The notes under the pieces: model-generated | What the model saw: only the letters and a program-made list of their open reading frames with translations | Database searches by the model: none | Told to the model about the DNA's origin: nothing | Program-made: the position numbers and the translations under genes | Virus record (IMG/VR): IMGVR_UViG_3300028925_006272 | Span: 1 to 21,989 of that record | Source of the DNA: a virus | Direction: 5' to 3' (one strand) | DNA: 21,989 nt | Shown here: positions 3 to 21,989 of the stretch, piece after piece | Numbering within the stretch: position 1 is the first letter of the stretch | How the letters are laid out: every line of letters starts with the position of its first letter

Positions 3-242
3 ATCACTGGATACTGGCGTATTCGAGGCGAAATCACTGACGCCGCCGACTACGTGAAAAAACCCCGGAGCCGAGGTACGAGGCGACTTCCTTCTTTGTT
101 CGGAGATCGTACTCAGGATTCAACTTACTTGCATCGGCCTACCATGACCATTTTAGACCCCCCTACCCCCGATCCCTTCGAGTCTGACCCGGAGGTATGG
201 GTCCATATTTTCTCTCCACAAAATCTGAGTCTAAAAAGGTGA
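3..242 (+). CDS. C-terminal end of an unknown protein (5' truncated by window edge)
   Basis: The reading frame is open from the first bases of the window to a TGA at 240-242, five bases before the next gene's ATG. About 79 residues are visible, and the frame has no upstream stop, so this is most simply the tail of a longer gene. The start of the visible part (GYWRIRGEITDAADY) reads like the end of a folded domain. The rest is Arg-rich (KKPRSRGTRR), then Pro/Asp-rich (ILDPPTPDPFESDPEVW), as in a flexible C-terminal tail. A GTG at 54 and an ATG at 144 lie in frame, but neither has a convincing ribosome binding site, which supports truncation. I do not recognise the family. It could also be a short spurious frame, so confidence is moderate. 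Confidence 0.45.
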   Translation: MTGYWRIRGEITDAADYVKKPRSRGTRRLPSLFGDRTQDSTYLHRPTMTILDPPTPDPFESDPEVWVHIFSPQNLSLKR

Positions 243-6138: not shown

Positions 6139-6441
6139 ATGCCAGGTCAAAGTTCATTTCTATCGGCGTTCTACGATGGAACGCCAACTGAACAGTTCTA
6201 CGCCTCGATCCCGCAAACGGGCAACACGGCGATGAAAGAATACTTTCGCGGCCAAAGTAATCGTATTTATGGCGATTACACGGCAGCCTATGGTCGCGGG
6301 TTGCAAAGTGGGCAGGACATTGGGCTGTACCCAGATTACTTGAAGGACTTTCCCTGGCTCCAGAATTTCTATAACCAGTCGCCATCTGCACGCGGAGAAA
6401 CACCAACCAGGTACGCACCACGCGTGCGTTATTCCGGGTAA
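6139..6441 (+). CDS. Hypothetical small virion-associated protein (100 aa)
   Basis: A 100-residue protein from ATG 6139 with GGGAG upstream. It is Tyr-, Gln- and Gly-rich with no transmembrane segment. The middle (YFRGQSNRIYGDYTAAYGRG followed by YPDYLKDFPWLQNFY) resembles the repeat-like blocks of the preceding gene's product: an aromatic-Arg start, a Tyr about ten residues later, then an aromatic-x-x-Leu helix. The C-terminus ends in a basic, extended SARGETPTRYAPRVRY segment that could bind a partner. Its stop codon TAA shares a base with the ATG of the giant gene (TAATG), so the two are probably translationally coupled. I do not recognise the family; a minor head or ejection-complex role is inferred from position. 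Confidence 0.6.
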   Translation: MPGQSSFLSAFYDGTPTEQFYASIPQTGNTAMKEYFRGQSNRIYGDYTAAYGRGLQSGQDIGLYPDYLKDFPWLQNFYNQSPSARGETPTRYAPRVRYSG

Positions 6442-9400
6442 TGGGCGCATACGACACAATCGCAGAGTCGTTCAAAGAAGCACGAGTGTCTCTGAAAGAG
6501 AAGCGGATTCAGCAAGTAGCGCCTCCTCCTCCGCCTCCTCCTCCAGCGCCGGCTCCTCGAGCTCCGGTTGTGCCTCAAAGGCCGGCACCTGCTATTCCAC
6601 CTTTGATCGCTGCGCCGTCTGTTGAGTCCGATCCTGCACAAGAGTTGCTAACAGCCTTGTCAGATTTGCAAGAACGAGGTCAGCGGTATGGAGTCGACAC
6701 AACTCAGTTCGATCCCCGTCCTGGTTCAACGCCTTTCGAGTTCGCTGATGAGGTTCACAGCGTTTTCGACCAGATCGATTCCAAAGTCATGGCAGACCTT
6801 CAGGCTCGACAAGAATATGAAACTGACCAAGCCTCGGCATTCAGAAACAAATTCGATGCTGCCGTAGCGCCTCCTTCACCAATTCAAAATCCTAGTAATG
6901 GTGTGTTGCCAGGGGTGGCAGTACCAAGCGAAACTCCAGACTGGTTCAACCCGGATGCGACTCGTGGGATGTGGGCTGCCAATTCGATGCTAACGCTTCC
7001 ACCAAAGGGTAGAGGCTATCTCGACGACGAAGGCAACGATATTGGACTCGAGCCATGGAGGGCTGCGATCCGTCCTGTTCTAAACGCCAATACGTTCGAG
7101 GAATTTGGACGAGGATTAGGGGATAAATATCCACTTCCTATAAGTGACAATCTTTCCGCCGCAGCCCAGTCAAATCCACTCATAAAGAACATTCTGAAAC
7201 CAAGTCTAATTGGAGACATCGCCGGTCCCGTTTTACGAGGGGCAGCGCATACAACGTCGCCACTTGAAATTGCATTCACTATTGCTACTGCTGGCTATGG
7301 TTCAGTCGTTACGCAAGCTATTAGGCGTATGGGCATCCCCGTCATCAGTAAAATCGCCGGTGTTGCTGCGCCAATGCTCGAGAAGGGCAACTTTGCCCAA
7401 CGTCTTGGTGTTGAGTGGGCTGCTGGTGGTGTTGCCCCAGAAGTCGGAGCAAGTGCAGCTATGGGCGCTTTCGAGGATGCCCCTGCGCCTGTTCAGATTG
7501 GTGCGGGATTAGCCGGTGGAGTTTTAGCTGCGGGAACTACGCTGGTTGCTCCAAGACTCGGTATAAAGGGATTGAAAGCATCCAAAGACCTTGTTACTGA
7601 GGGAATCCAGACTGCGCTCCGTTTAGGCGAGGATTCCGCAACCGCAGTAGGCAAGGCGAACACAGGAAACGTATTACTTCCTGCGAGCCCTGATCCGGTT
7701 GTGGCTGCTCGATCGGGCAGTCGAGATCCGAACGTCTTGATCGACAACATGCTCGAACCTATGCCCAGAGTAGTAAATGGAGAGTTCACTCCTAGAGGGC
7801 TCGATTTCGATACAGGACTTCCAAAGGATCTCGAAACAGTTCCAGCCAGGATCTTCGGCGATTTTGCGATCGTGAAGACTCCAGCCGGCGAATTCAAGGT
7901 TAGTCATATTCCAAGCGGCCAAGCGATTGGTCAGCCGCATCGACTTCTAAAGGATGCTAAGAAACAAGTTCAGTATTCGATCTCGATGTCAGATCCCGAA
8001 GTTCTGAAAATATCCGATCCGGACCAATTCCCGAGCGAAGCCACCTGGCGACTTCGCATGGCGTGGGATCGATCGATGGGACGAGACGTCACTCACGATA
8101 CCTATGTTCTTGGATTCAAAGATCCTGTGGCTGAGTCGATCCTCCCAGAAGGCGGTATCCTCGGCGACGACTTCGGTAAAGCGCCAGAAGGCACAACCAT
8201 CACCATCGATGGTGTCGAGACCAGGCTTGGACCGGACGGTAAGCCGATTGTGGAGACCACGGCACGAACAATCGACCCTCGTGAAGTCGAGGCCGATCGA
8301 ATCATCGCCGAAGCTGATGCCGAGAAGGCTCACGCCGACCTGGTGAAAGACGACCCGGCTGTTATGGAAGCAGCGGCAAACTACCGAATCGCTCGTGACT
8401 ACTCAGAGACGGCTTTGAAAGATCCAAAGACCACACCCGAAGATAATGCTGTGTGGCGTGACCATGAACTCGAGGCTTACCAGGCACTCAGGGCGGCAGA
8501 GGCCGCTGCTGTTGCGCCCGGAACAACGCCCAAGTTTGCATTTGAAGGTGAACCAGACTTAGTTCTGCAACATGGAACTGATGCTGAATTTACAGGAATT
8601 CCTAACGCTGGTAAAGACGGAAGGATTTACTTTTCCGACAGCACTATCGAAGGCAGAGGTGCTTCCTCATTCTATGGCGATACGGTAAAGAAATTCAACT
8701 TATCCGATGATGCCAGAATGATGGACAGGGATGAAGTTCTCACTAAAAAACAAGTGAAGAATATTATCGCTGGGGCTGAAGATGAAATTCGGAGACTCGG
8801 CTTACCAGAATCAGAGATAGCTAGGTATAAAGAATTAATAACTCTAACTGTTGATAAAAAAGGTCGTGCAACCGCAGGTGAAATTTCCGACAGGTTGGAT
8901 AGTGTAGATCGAAGTATAAACCCTAAGATGGGAGAGCCGGGCTATGACTTCAGGGGAGGGCAGTCAAAGTCTAATATTGCCAATGCAGGGCTGTCACGAG
9001 AGTTTGATTTTATCGCTCCAAGCGGTAACAGACCTCACGAGTATTCCGTTCTAAATAAGGACGTAATTATTGACTCAGGTTTACGGCAGGATAACTTAGA
9101 ACCAGTCGGGATACGCAAAGGACCTGACCCAGACTTTAATCAGTTCGGTGAGCCATATCCCACCACTCCAGCCACAGGCACGGCTGCTGCTAGGGGGGCT
9201 GGCATCCCTACTATCGATGAAATCGCCGCCGACTTAAGGAATCAAATAGCCGACCCTTTATCGCCGCAGAGTGAAAAAGGTTTAATGCTTTTCCCCGAAG
9301 ACTCTCTAAGGATTAGAGCAGCTGCATTAAACCCAGAAGCTAATGCCCAAGACCTTGTTAAGTTCAATGATGAATTTGGGATTGATCCAGTTTCCTTTGA

Positions 9401-12400
9401 AATCCCAGAAGGCCATATGTGGAACAATGGCAGAATTCAGCGTTACAACTACCCTCCAGGAGTTAGACCAGGGTTTAAAGAAGATGTTGCGCCTGATTTT
9501 ACAACTCGTCTTCGATCTGAGCTGGATCTTCCTCCAGTCAAACAGGCTGGGGGAGCCGTCACGACAGGCAACCTAACACTCGACGGCAATCGTGCCGAAT
9601 TCGAGACCCGGTTCGCTGCGCTCAGCAAGCTAACAGACGATGCTGAAAAGACCCCAAATCGGCAGATGACCGAAGAAGAAGTTGCGCTATGGGACAACGG
9701 AAATAATTGGGAAGAATTCTCACGATCTCGCGGCTACACCGAGGCGGAGATTCAAGACCACCAGGCGTTTCTCGATGCCTACACCGAAGGTCGTCAACTT
9801 GGCTACTCGGATGATGAGTTATTTGACATAACCAGAGCCACCCAAAAGGATGGCGAACTCCCTGTTGCTGATGATTTGCCTACGTCCGGACAAGCTGCGT
9901 TTGACGAGGCTGGTGAGGTCGGAGTACGTGATGTCGGGCCTCGTGAAGACGACATAATCAATGACGACTCACGACGAGTTCAGGGCGGGTTCTTCGGTGA
10001 GGAAGACTTGAAGACTTCTGAACAAGCCGCAGAAATGCTTGAAGGCACGCCGTTTGAAAAAGTCTACGATGACACGCCAGTTAGTCAGGCAGAGCAGGAA
10101 GTCGACGGAATAATCAAAGAACTCGAGATTGTTCAATCTCGAGGTATGGCTGATGAGATCGTTCAAGGCCGTGTTGATCGCCACGACGCGCCTAAAGGCT
10201 TCTCGATGAGAGGTATTTCGGACGATGCGATCATCAAGTGGATGGAAGCAAACCGCCCGGAGCTCAACCCTTACGAGACCGGAGTTCTCCACAACATCGA
10301 TTTTGAGCCTGATGAATACTCGGCGCTTCGGCAGATGAACCGCACCAACCCGAAAGGCAAGTCGAAGGCCGCTGACAAACGTGCGGCGAGGGAACTAGCG
10401 AAAGATCTCGACGAGGCCCGGTACAGGTTGGAGGAGGCCGAGTCAGCTGAATATTACGCAAAATTAGCAGCAAACGATCCGGACACGGACAACTTCGGCA
10501 AGGTCGACAACCTTTGGGATCAGCCAACCGTGGCTACCAAGTCCGGATACAACATTCACGAGGATTTGAAGAAAAGTAAGCCTCGGTACGGGTATCAGCA
10601 AAAGCACCCACCGCTTGATTTCCAAGACGACTTCGATCTGTTGCTTTACACCGCCACCCGGAAGACCCGAATGGGCAACCGGGCGGATAAATTTGGCCTA
10701 GAAATGGACGCTGAATTCGGCCCCGAATGGCGTCAAGCTAGTGGTCTGATTCGACAAGCTGGACGAGACCTCGAGGCGCGAATCAAAGAGCAAGTGAAGA
10801 ATGCTCCGGACGACGGCGAAACGATCGTTGTTGAGGTTGATGGCGCTTACGACAGGTTGAAGGCTGCAACCGGGCAGACGTCGGAAGGTCGGCCAGCAAG
10901 AACAGCCAATTCCTCGACACCAGCGTCAGGGCTCGAGGACGCTCGCTACACGGTCGACAAAGAGACCGGCGAGATCATCGACATCATGCGCGGGCCGCTA
11001 ACCGCCGAAGAAGTCTCACAGCTTCCGGAGTTCCTGCTTGCAAGGTTGAGGGCGTTAGGCATCAGCAGCCAGAACCCACGACCGGCAGCGAGCCAGATGA
11101 GTGCCGGTGGTCAAGGCGTCGTTCCTGATTCTGGCGTCCGCCCGGTTCAAGGCACTGGAGATCCGGTCGTAATGGGTCCACCGCTTGATGTTCCTGGTAG
11201 TGGTGGCGGAGTCCAGCAAGCGACTCAGGGCGGCGTCAGGCCACCTTTGAAGACTCATCCGACTGAATATGTTGCAGACGTGAACACTGTCAAGTCTGTC
11301 GAAGCTGCTAACGCCGCTTTGAAAGGTGAAATCATTGATTCAGCAGTCAAGGGATCTCCAGAGGATATGGGTGCTTCTGCTCAATTAGAGACTGGTAAGC
11401 TGGCTGACTTCCTTCGGTATATAGTTCCTAAAGACCACGCTGTCGATGAGAAGTTCTTGACAGCTGTTCAAGTCGGCGAAAACCTCAGAAACGTAAGTGC
11501 CCTACTCGCTCGATCATTAGATCCTGGTCGACTGTGGGACACGATTCAAAAGGGTCGTCACGGCGGCGTTATTTCAGAGTTCATTGGATGGCCAACTAGG
11601 CGGATACTTCGAGCAAAACTCGAAATGTCAGACAAGATGAAGTCTGACTTTGCTGCGCTTATGACTAAACACCGAGTTACTAAACCGAAACACATGGAGG
11701 CGGTTGGTGACGTCATCGAATATATCGGCACAAAGGACATCGAAGGAAAAGTATCGACCGAGGATTTGCTAAGTCGCAAGGTCATATTTAAACTCCTCAA
11801 GGAGTTTCCGTCCGACGAGCGCCGAAGAATCGTTGAACTCGCGCTTGAGACTCGTAACTTCTATGACAAAGTTCTTTATGCGATAAATTACGCTCGTATC
11901 AAGCGCGGCGACAAGCCGATTCCTAAACTGGATAACTACCGACCGTGGATCATCGCACAACGAGCATGGAAAGAACGAATCAAGGATGGCTGGAAGTCCA
12001 AAGGCGCAGGCGGTTACGAGGGCATGACCCCGAAGATGGCCGAAGAAGTCTTCGGTCGTCGATCATATCCAACCTTTATGGCCCCGCAAAGCGTTATGAA
12101 CGATCGCGCAATGCAACGTACTTACGGTCTAAAAGACGTCGGCAAAGAACGAGATATTGCCAAGCTAACGTATAGCTACATCGACTCTGCACTGGATGAT
12201 ATTTACAACAACACAATCATCGCCAACGTCACGCGGCACACGAAGGTCTTGCGTGAGAATGACCTCATCAAATCGGCGGATGCACTTGATACCTGGGCGC
12301 AGGAAACCTACGCCGGAGTACCAACTCCGTTCACCAGGTTCATGCGTGATTCTTTACCGTATGTACCTGTCGATCATCTGATGTGGGTACGTCGACAACT

Positions 12401-14237
12401 GACTCGAGCTGTATTCCCGTTGAACTGGAGTTGGAATATCGCTGTCCAAACATCATCTGTTGGGCTTACATACACGCGCTACGGCGGAATGAACACGATG
12501 AAGGCCCTCAATATCGCGTACGACACCACGACTAACGACTGGATCAAAAAACACGCCTACTCAGCCATTATGAAAAAACGTAATGGAGGAAAAGTTGTCT
12601 ACCAGGACCTCGGCAACGCTCTTGAAAAACATGCAACTCTTGAAAAGTCCAAATTCGAGAAATTTGAAGATATTGGAAACTTCCTCTCATCGACCATCGA
12701 AGAACGTCTTACGGCGCATGGTATAGCAGCTGCAAAACTCAAAGGAGAGCAACTAGGACTCACTGGCCGGTCGCTAATCGAATTCGCATCAGAAGGTGGA
12801 GCTCGAACTCAGTCGATGTACAACAGGGAAGATACGGTTGGTTGGCTCCGATCCCCCGAAATTGGAATCATTGCACCATTTCAGACGTTTGCGTTTGAAA
12901 TGCTCAACACTCTAAGAGAACTCAACATCCCGATACTTCGTGGCGTCGAGATCCCTGGCATAGTTCCGTATCTAGGAAATAAGAACATTGGGATTGGTCA
13001 AGCGGGAGCATACGAAACGCTTAGCGCAAAGAGAATTACTCTTGGTAAACAAGGGACAAAGGACGGCAAGCCTGTTTACGGACTTTCGGATGCAACAGCC
13101 GAGCATCGTGTAAAGAACGTCCTTCGCTTGGTGGCCGCAATGTACGTTACCAATCTTGTCCAAGACAAACTTATGGACCGTAAGCCGTGGAACCTCGGAT
13201 CATTCATTCCTATGTATAACCTCATCGTAGCTGGTGCTGCTGGATCAGGACCGATGAACCAGCCCTTGTATCAGAAATACTCTGGCGACTTCTTCGATGC
13301 TGTCGGTGAGTACGTTGAAATAGGCCGATGGCAGCCGATGAGGGATTTCGGTCTTCGTTACTACACTTTCGGAGGCGGACAAATTGCTCGTACATGGGGT
13401 GGCATTGAAGCCGTTGCAGAGGGTGGAGTCAGAAACCGTTCAGGTATGAAGAAATTTGAGTTGACTCCAGCCGACCAACTTGCAGCGTACACGGGCGGTG
13501 TCTATGCGACACAGCCAGGCAAGGACTACTTAGATGCCCGTGTCGACCGAACAGCAGTCGAGGAGTTTGTTGGTTTCGACTTGCCCGTAATCGGAGGCTA
13601 CTCAAACGGCATTAAAAAAGAGTACAGAGAGAAATTCGAGGAATATTACGACATCGATAAGGATATTAAAGGATCAAAGGGTCGAATCGCATGGCGCAAT
13701 AAGAACTGGGAAGTCGATGCGAATATGTTCACGGTCGGTATAGTCCGGTCGATACAATCGCCTCGAGCGAGAACACTCGCACAAGAACTCTTTGAAAAAC
13801 ACGAGATTATTGATTCAGAGACCGACCCGGAAGATCTCGAAGTTTACCGTCGCCACTTGGGAACCTCATTTGTAAGAAAGATGCTTGAAGGACTCGAACA
13901 TACTCCTGGTTTGGAAAAACTTCCGCCGCTCAAAAAGCTACCGGATTCAAGCAGTAACGAAGGTTCTAGCGTTCCGGGACTTGAGAAGTTATCATCTAGT
14001 CCGACCGATCAATGGAACAAGGTTAGCAATGTCCTTAACATTAAAGATCTCGTTGCTCTTAAAAAGATTTGGAGTAATGAAACTATTTCCCGACAAGAGA
14101 CCGAGTCGCTGAAAATTGCTTTTGAGAAGGAACCTATGGGTCAAACCAACTTTAGAAAGTGGTCTCGACAGACCCTTCGCCAAATCCAAACAAACGCAGC
14201 AAACGTGCGTACTCAACCAGAATTTGCTAACGTATAG
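6441..14237 (+). CDS. Giant multidomain polyvalent-type protein with ART-like domain (2598 aa)
   Basis: This 7.8-kb gene is about a third of the window and lies between portal and scaffold. Visible segments in order: an amphipathic N-terminus; a Pro-rich stretch (28-54, eight consecutive prolines); a Gly/Ala-rich hydrophobic segment (about 257-380) that could interact with membranes; a small beta segment with VSHIPSGQAIG (near 480); an ADP-ribosyltransferase-like domain (about 700-880, H711, Y730, E867); acidic linkers; an Arg/Glu coiled coil (about 1305-1347); a Pro/Gly linker near 1560-1605; and a very long helical C-terminal module (about 1605-2480) with LDNYRPWI (1830-1837), FPLNWSWNIAVQTSS (from 1992), IIAPFQTFAFE (from 2143) and DRKPWNLGSFIP. 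That module recalls the large polyvalent-protein-associated domains of phage proteins. No helicase, methyltransferase or peptidase motif is seen. Packaging in the capsid and injection with DNA is inferred; an internal ejection protein is the main alternative. Confidence 0.75.
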   Translation: MGAYDTIAESFKEARVSLKEKRIQQVAPPPPPPPPAPAPRAPVVPQRPAPAIPPLIAAPSVESDPAQELLTALSDLQERGQRYGVDTTQFDPRPGSTPFEFADEVHSVFDQIDSKVMADLQARQEYETDQASAFRNKFDAAVAPPSPIQNPSNGVLPGVAVPSETPDWFNPDATRGMWAANSMLTLPPKGRGYLDDEGNDIGLEPWRAAIRPVLNANTFEEFGRGLGDKYPLPISDNLSAAAQSNPLIKNILKPSLIGDIAGPVLRGAAHTTSPLEIAFTIATAGYGSVVTQAIRRMGIPVISKIAGVAAPMLEKGNFAQRLGVEWAAGGVAPEVGASAAMGAFEDAPAPVQIGAGLAGGVLAAGTTLVAPRLGIKGLKASKDLVTEGIQTALRLGEDSATAVGKANTGNVLLPASPDPVVAARSGSRDPNVLIDNMLEPMPRVVNGEFTPRGLDFDTGLPKDLETVPARIFGDFAIVKTPAGEFKVSHIPSGQAIGQPHRLLKDAKKQVQYSISMSDPEVLKISDPDQFPSEATWRLRMAWDRSMGRDVTHDTYVLGFKDPVAESILPEGGILGDDFGKAPEGTTITIDGVETRLGPDGKPIVETTARTIDPREVEADRIIAEADAEKAHADLVKDDPAVMEAAANYRIARDYSETALKDPKTTPEDNAVWRDHELEAYQALRAAEAAAVAPGTTPKFAFEGEPDLVLQHGTDAEFTGIPNAGKDGRIYFSDSTIEGRGASSFYGDTVKKFNLSDDARMMDRDEVLTKKQVKNIIAGAEDEIRRLGLPESEIARYKELITLTVDKKGRATAGEISDRLDSVDRSINPKMGEPGYDFRGGQSKSNIANAGLSREFDFIAPSGNRPHEYSVLNKDVIIDSGLRQDNLEPVGIRKGPDPDFNQFGEPYPTTPATGTAAARGAGIPTIDEIAADLRNQIADPLSPQSEKGLMLFPEDSLRIRAAALNPEANAQDLVKFNDEFGIDPVSFEIPEGHMWNNGRIQRYNYPPGVRPGFKEDVAPDFTTRLRSELDLPPVKQAGGAVTTGNLTLDGNRAEFETRFAALSKLTDDAEKTPNRQMTEEEVALWDNGNNWEEFSRSRGYTEAEIQDHQAFLDAYTEGRQLGYSDDELFDITRATQKDGELPVADDLPTSGQAAFDEAGEVGVRDVGPREDDIINDDSRRVQGGFFGEEDLKTSEQAAEMLEGTPFEKVYDDTPVSQAEQEVDGIIKELEIVQSRGMADEIVQGRVDRHDAPKGFSMRGISDDAIIKWMEANRPELNPYETGVLHNIDFEPDEYSALRQMNRTNPKGKSKAADKRAARELAKDLDEARYRLEEAESAEYYAKLAANDPDTDNFGKVDNLWDQPTVATKSGYNIHEDLKKSKPRYGYQQKHPPLDFQDDFDLLLYTATRKTRMGNRADKFGLEMDAEFGPEWRQASGLIRQAGRDLEARIKEQVKNAPDDGETIVVEVDGAYDRLKAATGQTSEGRPARTANSSTPASGLEDARYTVDKETGEIIDIMRGPLTAEEVSQLPEFLLARLRALGISSQNPRPAASQMSAGGQGVVPDSGVRPVQGTGDPVVMGPPLDVPGSGGGVQQATQGGVRPPLKTHPTEYVADVNTVKSVEAANAALKGEIIDSAVKGSPEDMGASAQLETGKLADFLRYIVPKDHAVDEKFLTAVQVGENLRNVSALLARSLDPGRLWDTIQKGRHGGVISEFIGWPTRRILRAKLEMSDKMKSDFAALMTKHRVTKPKHMEAVGDVIEYIGTKDIEGKVSTEDLLSRKVIFKLLKEFPSDERRRIVELALETRNFYDKVLYAINYARIKRGDKPIPKLDNYRPWIIAQRAWKERIKDGWKSKGAGGYEGMTPKMAEEVFGRRSYPTFMAPQSVMNDRAMQRTYGLKDVGKERDIAKLTYSYIDSALDDIYNNTIIANVTRHTKVLRENDLIKSADALDTWAQETYAGVPTPFTRFMRDSLPYVPVDHLMWVRRQLTRAVFPLNWSWNIAVQTSSVGLTYTRYGGMNTMKALNIAYDTTTNDWIKKHAYSAIMKKRNGGKVVYQDLGNALEKHATLEKSKFEKFEDIGNFLSSTIEERLTAHGIAAAKLKGEQLGLTGRSLIEFASEGGARTQSMYNREDTVGWLRSPEIGIIAPFQTFAFEMLNTLRELNIPILRGVEIPGIVPYLGNKNIGIGQAGAYETLSAKRITLGKQGTKDGKPVYGLSDATAEHRVKNVLRLVAAMYVTNLVQDKLMDRKPWNLGSFIPMYNLIVAGAAGSGPMNQPLYQKYSGDFFDAVGEYVEIGRWQPMRDFGLRYYTFGGGQIARTWGGIEAVAEGGVRNRSGMKKFELTPADQLAAYTGGVYATQPGKDYLDARVDRTAVEEFVGFDLPVIGGYSNGIKKEYREKFEEYYDIDKDIKGSKGRIAWRNKNWEVDANMFTVGIVRSIQSPRARTLAQELFEKHEIIDSETDPEDLEVYRRHLGTSFVRKMLEGLEHTPGLEKLPPLKKLPDSSSNEGSSVPGLEKLSSSPTDQWNKVSNVLNIKDLVALKKIWSNETISRQETESLKIAFEKEPMGQTNFRKWSRQTLRQIQTNAANVRTQPEFANV
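8530..9090 (+). other. ADP-ribosyltransferase-like domain inside the giant gene
   Basis: Three spaced motifs match the ART fold as seen in toxin-like and polyvalent phage proteins. LVLQHGTDAEF carries the H-G-T start (H711); GRIYFSDS carries the Tyr of the second strand (Y730), preceding a helix and strand that end in VKKFNLSDDARMMD; HEYSVLNKDVIIDSG carries Glu867 and Tyr868 in the 'EY.V....I' layout of the third catalytic strand. In known ARTs these residues bind NAD+ and position it for transfer of ADP-ribose to a target. About 120 residues between motifs two and three are helical and could be an insertion or target-recognition element. The family assignment is motif recognition by eye; activity is untested. 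Confidence 0.55.
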
Positions 14238-14948: not shown

Positions 14949-14977
14949 TCCTATAAGGGTTGCCAATAGAGGTTCAA

Positions 14978-15940
14978 ATGGCACTTACACTTGTTGAAGC
15001 CAGTAAATACTCGAATGATGTCCTTCAAAGAGGCATAATCGAGTTGATAGTAAAAGATGATCCAATTCTGGATCGCCTTCCATTCAAGGACATTGTAGGA
15101 AACGGTCTGACGTATGACGTCGAGACAACTATGTCCGGTGCAGATTTCTACTCAGTCGGCGACACATGGGTCGAGTCGACTGGTACTGTCACGCAGCACA
15201 CCGCTCACACCAAAATTCTTGGTGGCGATGCTGACGTAGATAACTACCTCAAAGCTACAAGGTCCAATGTCCAGGATCTTATGGCCGAGCAGATCGAAGC
15301 AAAGACAAAGGCGATTCGACACGCCTACATGAACACGTTCTTCTACGGATACGCCGCAACGGAAACCAAGCGGTTCGATGGTGTCCATCAGCTGCTAACC
15401 TCCGAGTCCTACAACACAATCGCTGTTGGCGGAAGCGGTTCTCCTGCTGTTCTCAGTATGGAAAAGGTTGAAGAACTGATCGACCTCATCACAGACGGCA
15501 AGCCCGACATGCTTGTTATGACGAAGCAGATGCGCCGCTCGATCAACGTCTACTTGAAGTCCGTTGGCGGTCTCACGTATGACGAGTCTGCTAATAAGCG
15601 GGTTCAGACAATCCTCGAAGTTCCAGTCCACGTTTCCGACTTCCTCTCGAACGACGAAGCCTGTGACAAAGACTACGGGAATGGCTACGGCCACCAGCCG
15701 ACAGATGGAACGGCACTTGGCGATGACGATAACTCGACATCGATCTTTGCTCTCCAGTTTGGTGCAAAAGCACTCTCCGGTGTGCAGTCGATGGGCATCA
15801 CGACCGAGAAGTTTGCCAAACTTGAAAACAAGGACGGCGCTCGAACTCGTATCAAGTGGTATCCAGGACTGATGATGCAGTCAATCATCAGCTGCTCGAA
15901 GCTGACTGGTCTCCAGCCAGCAGGAACAGTAACCGCCTAA
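14978..15940 (+). CDS. Major capsid protein (HK97-fold type)
   Basis: A 320-residue protein that follows the scaffold gene, the right size for an HK97-fold capsid subunit. I chose ATG 14978 with AGAGG at 14968-14972 rather than TTG 14960. The N-terminal helix ALTLVEASKYSNDVLQRGII is followed by a strand-rich elongated region (LTYDVETTMSGADFY), then the long spine-like helix NVQDLMAEQIEAKTKAIRHAY. FDGVHQLL marks the start of the A-domain, with MEKVEELIDLI and KPDMLVMTKQMRRSINVYLKS as its central helix-strand pair. Near the end, TRIKWYPGLMM is the closing strand seen in this family. No large N-terminal delta domain is present, consistent with a separate scaffold. The subfamily is recognised by pattern only, but position and length agree strongly. 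Confidence 0.88.
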   Translation: MALTLVEASKYSNDVLQRGIIELIVKDDPILDRLPFKDIVGNGLTYDVETTMSGADFYSVGDTWVESTGTVTQHTAHTKILGGDADVDNYLKATRSNVQDLMAEQIEAKTKAIRHAYMNTFFYGYAATETKRFDGVHQLLTSESYNTIAVGGSGSPAVLSMEKVEELIDLITDGKPDMLVMTKQMRRSINVYLKSVGGLTYDESANKRVQTILEVPVHVSDFLSNDEACDKDYGNGYGHQPTDGTALGDDDNSTSIFALQFGAKALSGVQSMGITTEKFAKLENKDGARTRIKWYPGLMMQSIISCSKLTGLQPAGTVTA

Positions 15941-17079: not shown

Positions 17080-17226
17080 ATGCAACCTACAATCGAAGCC
17101 GTACTTCGCGACAAAGATGGAAATATCAAACAGGTTTGGGCAGAAGCGGAACCAGGAGAGACTCTTGAACAGGCTCAATTACGAGTCATATCCGCAAATC
17201 AGTTACCAGACCAGGAAGAAAAATAA
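17080..17226 (+). CDS. Small hypothetical protein (48 aa; possibly 56 aa)
   Basis: A 48-residue frame fills the gap between two genes and ends in TAATG, sharing one base with the next start. From ATG 17080 there is no good ribosome binding site. An in-frame GTG at 17056, overlapping the previous gene by ten bases and preceded by AAGGGA, would add eight residues (GLDSKFE after the start), and the strand FEMQPTIEAVLRD would then be complete. That longer form is quite plausible. The protein has a beta-hairpin look (IEAVLRDKDGNIKQVW) and an acidic C-terminus (LPDQEEK). Function is unknown. The tight coupling to the following virion-protein gene suggests a small partner or assembly factor. Confidence 0.5.
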   Translation: MQPTIEAVLRDKDGNIKQVWAEAEPGETLEQAQLRVISANQLPDQEEK

Positions 17227-17615
17227 TGGCTGTATACGCATGTAACGCAGGGTTTACAGAACTTGCAAAACTAGGTGCTGGTGAAACTGCCTCTGCGTGG
17301 ACTCACATTGCCCTGGCAACCAATAAAGGACGAACTGCAAGTGCTACTACACTTGATGCTGAAACAGTTGCCTCTGGTCTCGCTCGTGCTGCTGCGACTA
17401 TGTCGACTGTAACTACAACAGTTACCGATGACACGATTCAGGCATATAAAGTATTCACAGCAGGTGCTACTGTCCTTGTTAAAGAGGCTGGAGTGTTCAA
17501 TGCGTCAAGCGGCGGCGACATGCTAATGGTTGGGGCTCTTGCACCGGAGGCATCAATGGTTTCCGGTGACACTCTAACAATCACCATGAAGTGCAAGATC
17601 CAAGCTGCTACATAA
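17226..17615 (+). CDS. Small beta-rich virion protein, probably appendage-associated (129 aa)
   Basis: The 129-residue product has the pattern of a recurrent phage structural family. An N-terminal segment ends in WTHIALATNKG, the thresholds LDAETVASGLARAAATMSTV and VTDDTIQAYKVFTA follow, then VLVKEAGVFNASSGGDMLMVG, and it closes with SGDTLTITMKCKI. These alternate strands and turns look like a single beta-sandwich. The phrase 'EAGVFNA..GG.ML' is characteristic of this group, which I know from tail-fibre-adjacent positions but not by a formal name. Its ATG overlaps the previous stop (TAATG) and has AGGAAG upstream. It lies 12 bases before the fibre gene. A structural or attachment role is likely; the exact place in the virion is not known. 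Confidence 0.6.
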   Translation: MAVYACNAGFTELAKLGAGETASAWTHIALATNKGRTASATTLDAETVASGLARAAATMSTVTTTVTDDTIQAYKVFTAGATVLVKEAGVFNASSGGDMLMVGALAPEASMVSGDTLTITMKCKIQAAT

Positions 17616-17627
17616 TAGGAGCTCGAT

Positions 17628-20015
17628 ATGGCAACTACATTTCAGCAGGTCGCTAATAATGCGATAGGCACTCTTGACACGACTATAAGTGCCTCGGATA
17701 CGAGCGTTGTTCTTGGGTCAGGCGAAGGCGCTTTATTCCCGTCTTCTGGATCATTCCACATATCGATCGGTACAGAAATTCTTATCTGTACTTCCAGGTC
17801 AAGCGACACACTGACTGTTAGTAGGGCCGCAGAGTCGACTACTGCCGCAATTCATACAGCTGGCGCTATCGTTGCCCTCAATATCATCAGCAAGCACATC
17901 TCAGACCTCAACACAGCCGTCAACGCTGTCGAGACTATACTTGCGACCTCTGGCGGTCTACGAGGCAATCTAAGCGATGAAACAGGATCAGGTGGAGCGG
18001 TTTTCGCTACTGACCCTGTTCTAGTAGCCCCCCGTTTAGGCACACCCCACTCAGGTGTAATGACTAATGTGACAGGGACAGCATCAGGACTGACCGCAGG
18101 TACGGCGACAGTAGCTACAACAGTCACGATCACTGACAACGAAAGTACAACCGAAGCCAACCCTATTATCTTTGCGGCTGGTGCGGCTGGTGCGGGTAAC
18201 ATCGCGCTGGAATCCGATGGGACGCTAACCTACAACCCTGGTACGGGTGCGATAACGGCAGCAGGATTCGTCGGTGCGCTAACAGGCAACGTCACAGGTA
18301 ACGCCAGCGGTACAGCCGCTACCGTTACAGCAGGCACACAGGCCTCTATAACAACCCTTACTAACGTGGTTACGGTTGGCGAACTGGTCAATGGCTCTAT
18401 CGCCTCTGGCTTCGGCACGATCAACAACGGCGCAAACACGATCACCACTACGGGACTCGTTACTGCTGGCGCGCTTACCGTTAATGGCACGACTACCCTC
18501 AACGGGGCTTTGGTTCTAGGTGATGCCGCTGGTGACACCTTAGACATCACGGCTTCCGCTACTGTAAGCACAGACTTCAAATTTGCCGACAATGTAGATA
18601 TTGCTCTTGGCACTAATGCGGACATTCTTATACGTCACAGCGATGCAGTCTCGGCAAATGCCGAAATTACTGACATTATCATTGGCACGTCTGTTCACCC
18701 CGGCGTTGCTGCCAACTCGCTACTCGTGTCGAACATCACCCAAAATGGCGACATGATGTTTGCAACCAACCGTGGTGGTAACACTGAAGCACACATGCTG
18801 TTCGATGCTGATGCTGGTGACACCTTCCTCTATGCCCGTGGCGTACAGGCTGTGAAAATCACTGGTGGTGGAGCAATCGTTGTCACGCCATCAATTACCG
18901 CAAATGGTGGAGTGGTAGGCGATCTCACAGGCGATGTAACAGGCAACGCTGACACCGTAACGACTAACGCAAACCTGACTGGGGATGTAACGTCTAACGG
19001 AAACGCAACAACAATAGCTGGCTTAGCGTATTCAAAGTTAGCCGCCCTTGCATCTGGAAACATCTTAGTAGGTAACGGTTCAAACGTAGCGGTTTCTGTA
19101 AACCCATCAGGCGATGTGGATGTGACTAACGCCGGTGTGTTCAGTATCTCATCAGGGTCAATCATAGATGATGATGTGAAGTCTGATGCAGCAATAGCTA
19201 TATCTAAACTAGCTACGATCACTTTAGCAACCAATACCACTGGCGATTATGTTCAGAACATTACCGGGGGAGTTGGGATTGACTCAAACGGGGCAACAAG
19301 CGGAGAGAATATCGCACATTCACTCACGCTAGACCTTTCGGAACTTGCAGATACAGCGATTGCTAACGGTGACTACATAGTATTTACAGACACTACTGAT
19401 AGTAATGCGTCCGTTAAAGGCGACTTAGCTGACGTAGCAACTCTGTTTGCTGGCACAAGCCTGACCGCCTCTAGTTCTGTCATAAGCGTTGACGATGACT
19501 TTCTGAAGAACGATGCTAACGACACGACATTAGGAACAATTACTGCTGCTGGATTTACCGCTTCAGATGACACAGATGTAATCTTAGGTGAGGCAGGAAA
19601 AGTAAACTTTGCCGATGTTGCCCCTGATGATGGAGAGGCTACGGGGGTAGTTCTTTCCTTTATTGCCGATGTAACTTTAGCAGTAGGGGATCTTGTTTAT
19701 ATCGTTGCCGATGGAAGTGATGGAAAAGTAGGCAAGGCAGATTCTAGTGCTGCTGGAACAATGCCAGCAATAGGAGTAGCTGTTACTGGCGTAAGTGCAG
19801 ATGCAGCAGTAGAAGTATTAGTGCAAGGATTACTGCGCCGAAACTCTGCCTATGGCTTTACTATTGGGCAGGACTTATTTGTAAGCGAGACTGCTGCGGC
19901 TGTTACGGCAACTGCCCCCACAACTAGCGGTGCTACGGTACAAAAGGTAGGCGTGGCCCTTCACGCTGATATTGCCTACTACAACTTCAACACGACTGAG
20001 GTTCTGCTTGCCTGA
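17628..20015 (+). CDS. Repetitive tail-fibre-like / adhesin protein (795 aa)
   Basis: This long Gly/Ala/Thr/Asn-rich protein has almost no Cys or Trp and is typical of phage fibres. The N-terminal 110 residues (FQQVANNAIGTLDTTISAS to HISDLNTAVNAVETI) form a compact beta segment and a short helix, probably the attachment end. Repeats of a 'LTG-D/N-VTGNA' type occur near residue 217 and residue 433, with another LTGDVTS close after the second. Stretches such as FADNVDIALGTNADILI look like fibre beta-repeats. 'DDDVKSDAAIAISKLA' near 512 is a common fibre spacer. The last 140 residues form a distinct domain (GDLVYIVADGSDGKVGKAD, APTTSGATVQKVGVALH) that ends at an aromatic-rich tip. ATG 17628 has AGGAG. 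Host-receptor contact is likely; whether it trimerises on tail or head is not visible. Confidence 0.8.
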   Translation: MATTFQQVANNAIGTLDTTISASDTSVVLGSGEGALFPSSGSFHISIGTEILICTSRSSDTLTVSRAAESTTAAIHTAGAIVALNIISKHISDLNTAVNAVETILATSGGLRGNLSDETGSGGAVFATDPVLVAPRLGTPHSGVMTNVTGTASGLTAGTATVATTVTITDNESTTEANPIIFAAGAAGAGNIALESDGTLTYNPGTGAITAAGFVGALTGNVTGNASGTAATVTAGTQASITTLTNVVTVGELVNGSIASGFGTINNGANTITTTGLVTAGALTVNGTTTLNGALVLGDAAGDTLDITASATVSTDFKFADNVDIALGTNADILIRHSDAVSANAEITDIIIGTSVHPGVAANSLLVSNITQNGDMMFATNRGGNTEAHMLFDADAGDTFLYARGVQAVKITGGGAIVVTPSITANGGVVGDLTGDVTGNADTVTTNANLTGDVTSNGNATTIAGLAYSKLAALASGNILVGNGSNVAVSVNPSGDVDVTNAGVFSISSGSIIDDDVKSDAAIAISKLATITLATNTTGDYVQNITGGVGIDSNGATSGENIAHSLTLDLSELADTAIANGDYIVFTDTTDSNASVKGDLADVATLFAGTSLTASSSVISVDDDFLKNDANDTTLGTITAAGFTASDDTDVILGEAGKVNFADVAPDDGEATGVVLSFIADVTLAVGDLVYIVADGSDGKVGKADSSAAGTMPAIGVAVTGVSADAAVEVLVQGLLRRNSAYGFTIGQDLFVSETAAAVTATAPTTSGATVQKVGVALHADIAYYNFNTTEVLLA

Positions 20016-20697
20016 TATATCCAAGATCAACAACGTAGCCGTAGCCGACATCTCCAAGCTAGATTCGATCACCTTTGCTCATGGGCAGAAGGTCAACAAT
20101 CAGGATGTCAGCCTTGTAACCGACGCTCACACGCTGCTCGCTACGCGTGATATAGCTGTTCTTGGCGCAAGTTCTAGCATTACTATCACTTCGGGTATTG
20201 ATGACACCTACGATGTTTACGAGTTTCACTTCACGAACATGCACCCTGCGAATAATGGTGTTGAGTTCGGCTTTCAGGTAAACGCTTCTGATGATGAGGG
20301 TGGCGGTTTCGATACGTCGCCAATTACATCGAACGTTGCCAGAATGTATACCGACTACGACAATAGTTCTAAAAGTCTTGCATACCGAACAGGAACCGAC
20401 CAAGCGCAAGGAGCGGCGTATCAAAAGATGACTGAGTATACGTCCAATGAGAACGATAGCGGTGTGGCTGGGGTTCTTACTTTATATGCACCTTCAAGCA
20501 CAACCTACATGAAGCACTTTATGCTTACGACAACTGACATGTATCACGACACTTCGTTATCAACATTTTACATTGGCGGTTACATCAATACTGGTGACCC
20601 TGCCGACCAGCCAGCAATAACCGAAATAAGTTTCAAGTTCTCGGCAGGAAACATCAACGCAGGAGTTATCAAGATGTACGGGGTGGCTAAGTCCTAA
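20008..20697 (+). CDS. Putative adsorption/virion protein, paralogue 1 (229 aa)
   Basis: I chose TTG 20008, which overlaps the fibre stop and has GAGG at 19997-20000; it gives the start PDISKINNVAVADISKLDSI. This 'DISKIN.V...DISK' pattern is a familiar N-terminus of phage fibre-type proteins and probably an attachment segment. Upstream in-frame ATG 19972 would overlap the fibre gene by 44 bases. From about residue 50 the protein is a beta-rich domain with SGIDDTYDVYEFHFTNMHP, FGFQVNAS, GGGFDTS, LTLYAPSSTTYMKHF and a closing NINAGVIKMYGV. The same domain is repeated in the next two genes. It looks like a jelly-roll or lectin-type beta sandwich. Role in host recognition is inferred from its place after the fibre gene. 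Confidence 0.7.
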   Translation: MPDISKINNVAVADISKLDSITFAHGQKVNNQDVSLVTDAHTLLATRDIAVLGASSSITITSGIDDTYDVYEFHFTNMHPANNGVEFGFQVNASDDEGGGFDTSPITSNVARMYTDYDNSSKSLAYRTGTDQAQGAAYQKMTEYTSNENDSGVAGVLTLYAPSSTTYMKHFMLTTTDMYHDTSLSTFYIGGYINTGDPADQPAITEISFKFSAGNINAGVIKMYGVAKS

Positions 20698-21260
20698 TGG
20701 CACTAACACTAATCGGCACACCGCTAGTTCTGACCACTGATGATACAGCCCTGTGTGAGTATGACATCACATCAGGTATCGACGATACGTATGACTCGTA
20801 TGAGTTCCACTTCGTGAATATGCACCCTGAAGAAAGCAATGTAAATTTCTGCTTTCAAGTGAACGCTTCTAATGACACAGGAGGCGGTTTCGATACAAGC
20901 TTGATTGCTTCGGGAGCGTTTCGTGCCTACCACAAAGAGGACGGGTCGGGCGGCACTCTTGCCTACGATACTGGTTCGGATAACGCTCGCACAGATGGGT
21001 TTCAACGAATCCTGTCAACCGGAACAGGGATTGAGGACTGGGAGTCTGTATCTGGAGTCATGACGCTTTACGAACCATCATCGACAGTTTACGTCAAGAA
21101 TTTTACGGCTGTTGGAAACGGAGCAGACCACGGCGATTACACGGTTAATTCTTTCATGTCTGGTTTTATTGACCAAACTCTTGCAATACCCGAAATCAGA
21201 TTCAAGTTCGACAGTGGCGACATCCACGCTGGCACTATCAAGATGTTTGGAGTTAGCTAA
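20697..21260 (+). CDS. Putative adsorption/virion protein, paralogue 2 (187 aa)
   Basis: The ATG at 20697 shares a base with the previous stop (TAATG). This 187-residue protein is nearly all the shared domain: SGIDDTYDSYEFHFVNMHP, FCFQVNAS, GGGFDTS, LTLYEPSSTVYVKNF and DIHAGTIKMFGVS. It lacks the 'DISKIN' N-terminal segment of paralogue 1, so it probably needs another protein for attachment. The protein is close to paralogue 1 in these blocks while the codons differ in many third positions (compare 20191-20250 with 20770-20829), so the duplication is old and the amino-acid sequence is held by selection. Cys at 19 and 52 is unusual for the group. The precise ligand and virion location are unknown. 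Confidence 0.7.
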   Translation: MALTLIGTPLVLTTDDTALCEYDITSGIDDTYDSYEFHFVNMHPEESNVNFCFQVNASNDTGGGFDTSLIASGAFRAYHKEDGSGGTLAYDTGSDNARTDGFQRILSTGTGIEDWESVSGVMTLYEPSSTVYVKNFTAVGNGADHGDYTVNSFMSGFIDQTLAIPEIRFKFDSGDIHAGTIKMFGVS

Positions 21261-21802
21261 TGGCACTTATATACATCTCAACAGGGACGGCAGGGGCTAC
21301 CATTAGCTTCACAGGGATTGATGACACGTACAACGAGTACCAGTTTCACTTAATAAATATCCACGGGGCAACTGACGATAAGAGTCTTGGCTTTCAAGTG
21401 GATACTGGAAGTGATACTGACTACGACCAACCTATGACCACTACCTTCTTTCAAGCGTTCCACAATGAAGATGCTTCTGGCGGGGGAATGGCTTACTCCA
21501 CTGGTAACGACCAAGCAACAAGCGGTGATGGCAACGGTGTCTTTTCAAAAATTCTGAAAGATCAAGGTGCTGCTGATACCGACCAATCTGGGTCTGGTAT
21601 TTTGAAGCTGTATGCTCCAGCAAGCACAACTTATGTAAAGCATTTCACAACTGACGCTCAAATGAGTCAATCATCTGAATACTCACAACGAGTATTCACT
21701 GCTGGTTACATCAACATCACCGCAGCCATAACAAGCATTCAGTTTAAGTTTGACAGCGGCAACATCGACGCAGGTGAAATACACATGTACGGAGTAGGAT
21801 AA
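21260..21802 (+). CDS. Putative adsorption/virion protein, paralogue 3 (180 aa)
   Basis: The third member of the array starts at ATG 21260, again in a TAATG overlap, with GGAG at 21249-21252. The shared blocks are present but more diverged: TGIDDTYNEYQFHLINIHG, LGFQVDTGSD, then ILKLYAPASTTYVKHF, SIQFKFDSGNIDAGEIHMYGVG. The GGGFDTS block of paralogues 1 and 2 is replaced by an acidic Tyr-Asp stretch (SDTDYDQP). An extra Gly/Asp-rich loop (TSGDGNGVFSKI) lies in the middle. Divergence centred on loops while the framework is kept fits a surface-exposed binding domain under diversifying pressure, an inference from three sequences only. Confidence 0.7.
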   Translation: MALIYISTGTAGATISFTGIDDTYNEYQFHLINIHGATDDKSLGFQVDTGSDTDYDQPMTTTFFQAFHNEDASGGGMAYSTGNDQATSGDGNGVFSKILKDQGAADTDQSGSGILKLYAPASTTYVKHFTTDAQMSQSSEYSQRVFTAGYINITAAITSIQFKFDSGNIDAGEIHMYGVG

Positions 21803-21805
21803 CTT

Positions 21806-21989
21806 ATGGCAACACTAGCCCAATGGAAAACACAACTAAAGGCATCGCACAGCAGCCTGACCAAGAATGTCGATGGTGTATCAAGCACCCTCTCGACCGC
21901 TGAGTACAACAAGACGATTGACGAGTGGGCGCAAGTATCGTTCGACAAAGAAGTTTCGGACAACATCAGAGACAACGGTGGCAAGTCTG
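21806..21989 (+). CDS. Start of a hypothetical protein (3' truncated by window edge)
   Basis: ATG 21806 follows the third paralogue's stop by three bases and has AGGA at 21796-21799. The frame stays open to the end of the window, giving 61 residues. It begins MATLAQWKTQLKASHSSL, with a further SSTLSTAEYNKTIDEWAQV stretch, all likely helical and charged, with no beta repeats and no membrane segment. It therefore differs from the beta-rich genes before it and probably begins a new structural component. No family can be named from this part. Confidence 0.6.
   Translation, partial: MATLAQWKTQLKASHSSLTKNVDGVSSTLSTAEYNKTIDEWAQVSFDKEVSDNIRDNGGKS

Follow-up and report, generated by a model that had tools for sequence, protein, structure and literature searches.

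Three adjacent paralogous genes at positions 20008-21802 of the window (the whole stretch of viral DNA analysed here, 21,989 nucleotides long) probably encode subunits A, B and C of one heterotrimeric receptor-binding tip on a tail fibre; we put the probability of this reading at about 0.6. In the sequences of the family the genes are kept as a set of three with one member of each class, a code of about 12 residues marks the position within the set, a separate face of the domain is hypervariable, and gene bodies are exchanged between kept ends.

The three genes lie on the plus strand and their products are 39-48% identical. Copy 1 (20008..20697, 229 aa, TTG start) has an N-terminal linker of about 40 residues (PDISKINNVAVADISKLDS...) followed by the sandwich domain, while in copy 2 (20697..21260, 187 aa) and copy 3 (21260..21802, 180 aa) the domain begins almost at residue 1. 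The linker (20008-20130) contains repeated I-(S/E)-KIN-x-(V/I)-A motifs found in copy 1 only, and the same motifs occur in copy 1 at the related loci L007, L010, L006 and L035; it is perhaps a joint to the fibre shaft. Both the copy 1/2 and the copy 2/3 junctions read TAATG, so that each start overlaps the preceding stop by one base.

Pairwise BLASTP among the three copies gave E-values of 7e-50, 7e-33 and 5e-41 with identities of 48, 39 and 42%. The profile of phrog_14820, a PHROGs v4 family of unknown function, covers most of the domain in each copy (E 3.1e-40, 4.3e-40 and 3.3e-50), and a Pfam search of the three copies found nothing above cut-off (no family for copies 1 and 2, one sub-threshold unrelated match for copy 3). 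The sequence-only reading that preceded this work had recognised three tandem paralogues here and regarded copies 1 and 2 as old and kept, and both statements hold. Copies 1 and 2 use different codons at 46 of their 89 identical residues; synonymous sites of the copies are saturated (pS 0.72-0.75) while pN is only 0.36-0.37, which marks them as old and under constraint.

The gene directly upstream of the triad (17628..20015, plus strand) codes for a long tail-fibre-like protein of 795 aa matching phrog_8469, tail fiber protein (E 7.6e-11), and is probably the shaft carrying the tip. It is preceded by a gene for a fibre I-like protein of the podophage GP4 type (17226..17615, plus strand; Pfam PF23140 Gp80, E 3.1e-8, above its cut-off). 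Behind the triad, the window ends within a further plus-strand gene (21806..21989), of which the first 61 residues are present. These are 52-72% identical to the same gene in eight related loci, and the orthologues, about 107 aa long, belong to a family whose HTVC010P member is a tail assembly chaperone (PF16778, phrog_4912). A gene of this tail-fibre-assembly family stands behind the phrog_14820 set in 153 loci among the matches listed. The window therefore has the layout of the HTVC010P type, three tandem copies followed by a fibre-assembly-family gene, with the 61 residues of the latter matching the cluster.

Further upstream, a single open frame of 2598 aa occupies positions 6441-14237, flanked by the portal region and the scaffold/capsid genes. 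Stretches of it compared at E 0.1 with PHROGs and Pfam (Pfam only for 8901-12500) had no match, and the product is probably a giant protein of the virion interior or of ejection. The major capsid protein (14960-15940) is of the phrog_212 / GP7-SU10 type, with the nearest relatives in Paenibacillus and Gordonia phages (34%). It has no match in the window-type relatives L001, L002 and L007, a comparison made with no positive control and on records that are maybe fragments, and the triad may for this reason sit on different phage backbones.

Relatives were gathered from IMG/VR in six scans, and all counts given here describe a sample, namely the matches listed. For the count of arrays, loci sharing an 80-mer within the copies were removed and 800 bases were required on either side. 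Among the matches listed this left 108 complete non-redundant arrays: 101 with three copies (99 by rule, plus L233 and L240 assigned by eye since one copy is split or weak), six with six copies and one with a single copy, and none of the 108 has two, four or five. Copy number is thus three or twice three in 107 of the 108 listed. As only one matching copy was demanded, the search was not biased towards three. Some arrays truncated at a contig end have four or five copies, as expected from cut sets of six. One-base overlaps were found at 259 of 419 junctions between copies (among the matches listed), and no natural fusion of copies was found in the collected loci.

Three tandem copies, each annotated as hypothetical protein, are present in HTVC010P, HTVC019P (Autographiviridae) and HTVC034P. 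Pelagibacter phage Lederberg EXVC029P (L070, 9022-9522) has the sole single-copy complete array among those listed; a C1q-like gene is located directly upstream of this copy. Apart from the set itself, a divergent phrog_14820-family member occurs in longer frames upstream of it in L028 (3942-4436), L041 (3956-4468), L043 (4006-4488), L069 (6960-7463) and L121 (3331-3819), and is possibly the head of another fibre; the single matches of L028, L043 and L121 correspond to this member beside a normal set. On the 123.7 kb contig of a large phage (L221, 3361-6777) the triad stands beside a run of 2OG-Fe(II) oxygenase-like genes, and its copy 3 has lost the usual C-terminal strand. L072 (4650-6498), a contig assigned to a Flavobacteriaceae MAG, has a triad of the same type, and the module may therefore extend beyond SAR11 phages.

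Gene position within the triad can be read from a small group of residues. Across 131 triads, the mutual information that a column shares with gene position reached 0.2-0.83 bit at residues 46, 69, 70, 72, 74, 76, 156, 158, 220, 222 and 227 (copy 1 numbering) and was weaker at 62 and 224, against about 0.05 bit under within-locus permutation; nearly all other columns stayed at this null. In copy 1 of the window these residues fall, on the plus strand, into the N-terminal strand (residue 46, 20143..20145, a family-level assignment), the segments 69-76 (20212..20235) and 156-158 (20473..20481), and the C-terminal strand (220-224, 20665..20679, followed by residue 227). All but the terminal ones alternate with the invariant core residues Y71, F73, G155, L157, G219 and I221. 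According to a mean-field coupling analysis of 796 copies (Neff 689), the strands are neighbours in the order 44-48, 216-226, 70-80, 153-160. Some of the strongest coupled pairs, e.g., 74-222, may themselves mirror position classes, but the couplings between core residues (73-221, 79-217, 75-157 and 77-154) are independent of them. Since the informative residues alternate with the core and their strands couple side by side, the gene position is encoded on one face of a single sheet, in about 12 outward residues of adjacent strands.

In the HTVC type the position columns are 52% identical to the same position in other phages and 18% identical between positions within a phage. Nearest-neighbour classing on 13 position columns gave each copy a class of its own in 121 of 146 triads (83%), the columns having been picked on largely the same triads, with a signal that exceeds the permutation null by far. 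With as many framework or hypervariable columns, three classes came out in 22-23% of triads. The full class set was found in another gene order in 21 triads, and 13 of the 24 halves of the sets of six contain three classes, several sixes reading as two full sets. Lys 74 and Lys 222 are often common to positions 1 and 2; in position 3 both sites are occupied by other residues, and residue 220 is often acidic. In the subgroup of the window (6-8 triads) the signature is weaker, mainly residues 70, 220, 222 and 224 being kept. Nearest-neighbour classing calls the window triad A-B-A, and the three subgroup triads out of eight called A-B-C do not include it. The three-part reading for the window phage consequently leans on its relatives.

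A different part of the domain is hypervariable. Columns with more than 2.7 bits of entropy lie mainly at 84-88, 110-130, 140-153 and 174-189. Residues 110-130 of copy 1 (20335..20397, plus strand), comprising strands and a loop of the opposite sheet, reach 4.0 bits and have no position information; judging by this variability they probably form the ligand face. A second such stretch, residues 174-189 (20527..20574, plus strand), reaches 4.1 bits. Hypervariable columns are 14% identical whether compared within a phage, at the same position across phages or at different positions across phages; framework columns are about 73% identical. On the variable face, two copies from a single phage thus resemble each other no more than copies from unrelated phages do, and in sequence terms this is how diversifying binding faces look. 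The description of framework blocks with diverged loops offered by the sequence-only reading was inexact: mean column entropy hardly differs between strands and loops (1.64 vs 1.54 bits, p = 0.76), and most of the variability is found at outward-pointing residues of a single group of strands and in their loops. Its suggestion that different specificities are displayed at once is backed by the 14% identity, at the level of sequence.

When the position-specific columns were removed from the alignment, positions no longer formed clades in the tree. The near-identical bodies of L001 copy 2 and L004 copy 1 differ at 70, 74, 76, 220 and 224 and in the tail, and the residues separating them are those marking position. 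In 19 pairs of loci one copy has 93-100% nucleotide identity and another less than 80%; in several of these pairs the ends and flanks have 0.8-1.0 identity while the middle falls to 0.73-0.79. Bodies thus pass from position to position and from phage to phage, with the position-specific ends staying in place. Recent gene conversion between the copies of one phage is not supported, as synonymous identity is no higher within a phage than between phages. A first tree had suggested that positions form clades within the HTVC type and that separate triplications took place elsewhere; as the clades dissolve after column removal, we claim no number of independent triplications. dN/dS on close pairs was left aside because exchange of gene middles disturbs the estimate.

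The AlphaFold2 model of copy 1 (97 rows; pLDDT 90, pTM 0.83) is a lectin-like beta-sandwich. A fold search of the PDB gave weak similarity to galectin/ConA-type sandwiches: VIA-align Z-scores were 6.3-8.2 to galectins, ERGIC-53 and GH32 C-terminal domains, the best Foldseek E-value was 5e-3, and no C1q/TNF-like head was among the matches listed. A sequence search of the PDB with the family profile found nothing. Structure matches in BFVD were strong (best E 9e-18), and some are named tail fibre, side tail fibre repeat or collagen triple helix repeat. Together with the gene context, behind a tail-fibre gene and before a tail-fibre-assembly gene, and with the hypervariable face, the model and these matches support the earlier proposal of a receptor- or surface-binding domain.

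In the A+B+C tip, for which we infer heterotrimerisation, the place on the virion and ligand binding, each subunit would be a beta-sandwich at the end of the tail fibre. The position-specific outer face (N-terminal strand, 70-80, 153-160 and C-terminal strand) would pack the subunits into a 1:1:1 heterotrimer, and the hypervariable outer side of the opposite sheet, loops included, would bind the cell surface, giving three unlike binding faces per tip. Through the one-base gene overlaps the three subunits would be made in equal amounts, and the next gene downstream would supply the fibre-assembly chaperone. Diversity would arise by swapping gene middles between phages and positions, inside ends that keep the subunit class. 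We give roughly even odds to the tip being an obligate combinatorial one, in which the position-coding interface is fixed and three unrelated hypervariable faces are swapped as cassettes across positions and across unrelated phages (HTVC010P-type, HTVC019P-type, one of more than 120 kb and the lineage of the window). If true, one virion would show three specificities on one tip, renewed one at a time.

Many phage fibre tips are homotrimers, and a homotrimer of this domain should be viable since Lederberg EXVC029P manages with one copy. The position-specific residues could then keep three homotrimers apart, each docked at a separate virion site, with the position face either blocking mixing or fitting three partners; with one dock per class, the class composition would be kept in permuted gene order, as is indeed the case. 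We nevertheless consider separate homotrimers unlikely. They leave unexplained why the complete arrays listed have three or six copies and never two, four or five, they give no reason why the classes differ only in one sheet face and the ends, and the Lys 74/Lys 222 pair of positions 1 and 2 with the other pattern in position 3 fits contact between unlike subunits better. The position face could equally meet a third protein, and the upstream gene is long and fibre-like, as would suit three decoration-like adhesins bound at quasi-equivalent sites of one fibre or capsid protein, with the position face as docking surface. Upstream genes, however, vary by group (window and L001 type, L034, L046, L067) while the position columns are shared, so no common docking partner is evident, and elsewhere the domain is the head of tail-fibre and collagen-repeat proteins; we regard such docking as quite improbable.

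Ordinary tandem duplication and diversification, yielding a spare adhesin pool of free number kept for host range, would agree with the hypervariable faces and with the independent exchange of single copies. It is the least probable explanation and has very little chance in our estimate, given three or six copies in all but one of the complete arrays listed, position-specific residues kept in more than 100 phages and junctions that are mostly one-base overlaps. Against the A+B+C tip itself stand the single copy of Lederberg, the weaker signature of the window subgroup and the sets of six, of whose 24 halves only 13 hold the full class set. The AlphaFold2 model of a natural triad (L151) read through its stops as one chain, built from 9 aligned rows only, speaks neither for the tip nor against it: the domains fold at pLDDT 70-90, and at a pTM of 0.35 their arrangement is not confident. 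We favour the A+B+C tip over the three other explanations because of the combined evidence: a near-invariant set of three, one member per class, expression that the overlaps would equalise, class information confined to one face and the ends, and the chaperone gene. The hetero-trimeric tip suggested by the sequence-only reading thereby gains indirect support from set size, class composition, overlaps and one-face code.

Phages of the HTVC010P type rank with the most abundant viruses of the sea. The triad provides three strong candidates for their receptor-binding proteins in cultured phages, with predicted stoichiometry and contact residues. The proposed reading would also explain how host recognition could diversify without breaking assembly, and it offers a sequence test for heteromeric fibre tips in uncultured phages, namely near-invariant copy number combined with position information on a single face.

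In the open-access papers searched, we found no description of the function or the triad of phrog_14820 in HTVC phages. Complement C1q/TNF-like heads are built of homologous chains A, B and C, which pack around the trimer axis through the sheet that holds their N- and C-terminal strands. The comparison concerns the way of working only; our fold search gave galectin/ConA-like sandwiches and no membership is claimed. Pelagiphage C1q-domain proteins, which are under-recruiting and so hypervariable and were proposed to be receptor binders, likewise have a hypervariable beta-sandwich head near the tail fibre, but belong to another family for which no triad is described (PMC3909814). A precedent with a different fold is found in virophage DSLV2 and relatives of Aquatic Virophage 1, which have three consecutive paralogous tail proteins with position conserved across viruses; for DSLV2, co-purification and native PAGE support a 1:1:1 heterotrimer, which binds cyanobacterial (Synechococcus) LPS (PMC12724248). 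For those virophages the paper describes no position code on a single face, no sets of six, no permuted gene order and no exchange of bodies. The proteins differ as well: those of DSLV2 are of the PF07484 collar / T4 gp37-tip type, a domain absent from the window copies in the Pfam search, and sit on a virophage capsid, whereas phrog_14820 is modelled as a galectin/ConA-like sandwich and belongs to tailed marine phages.
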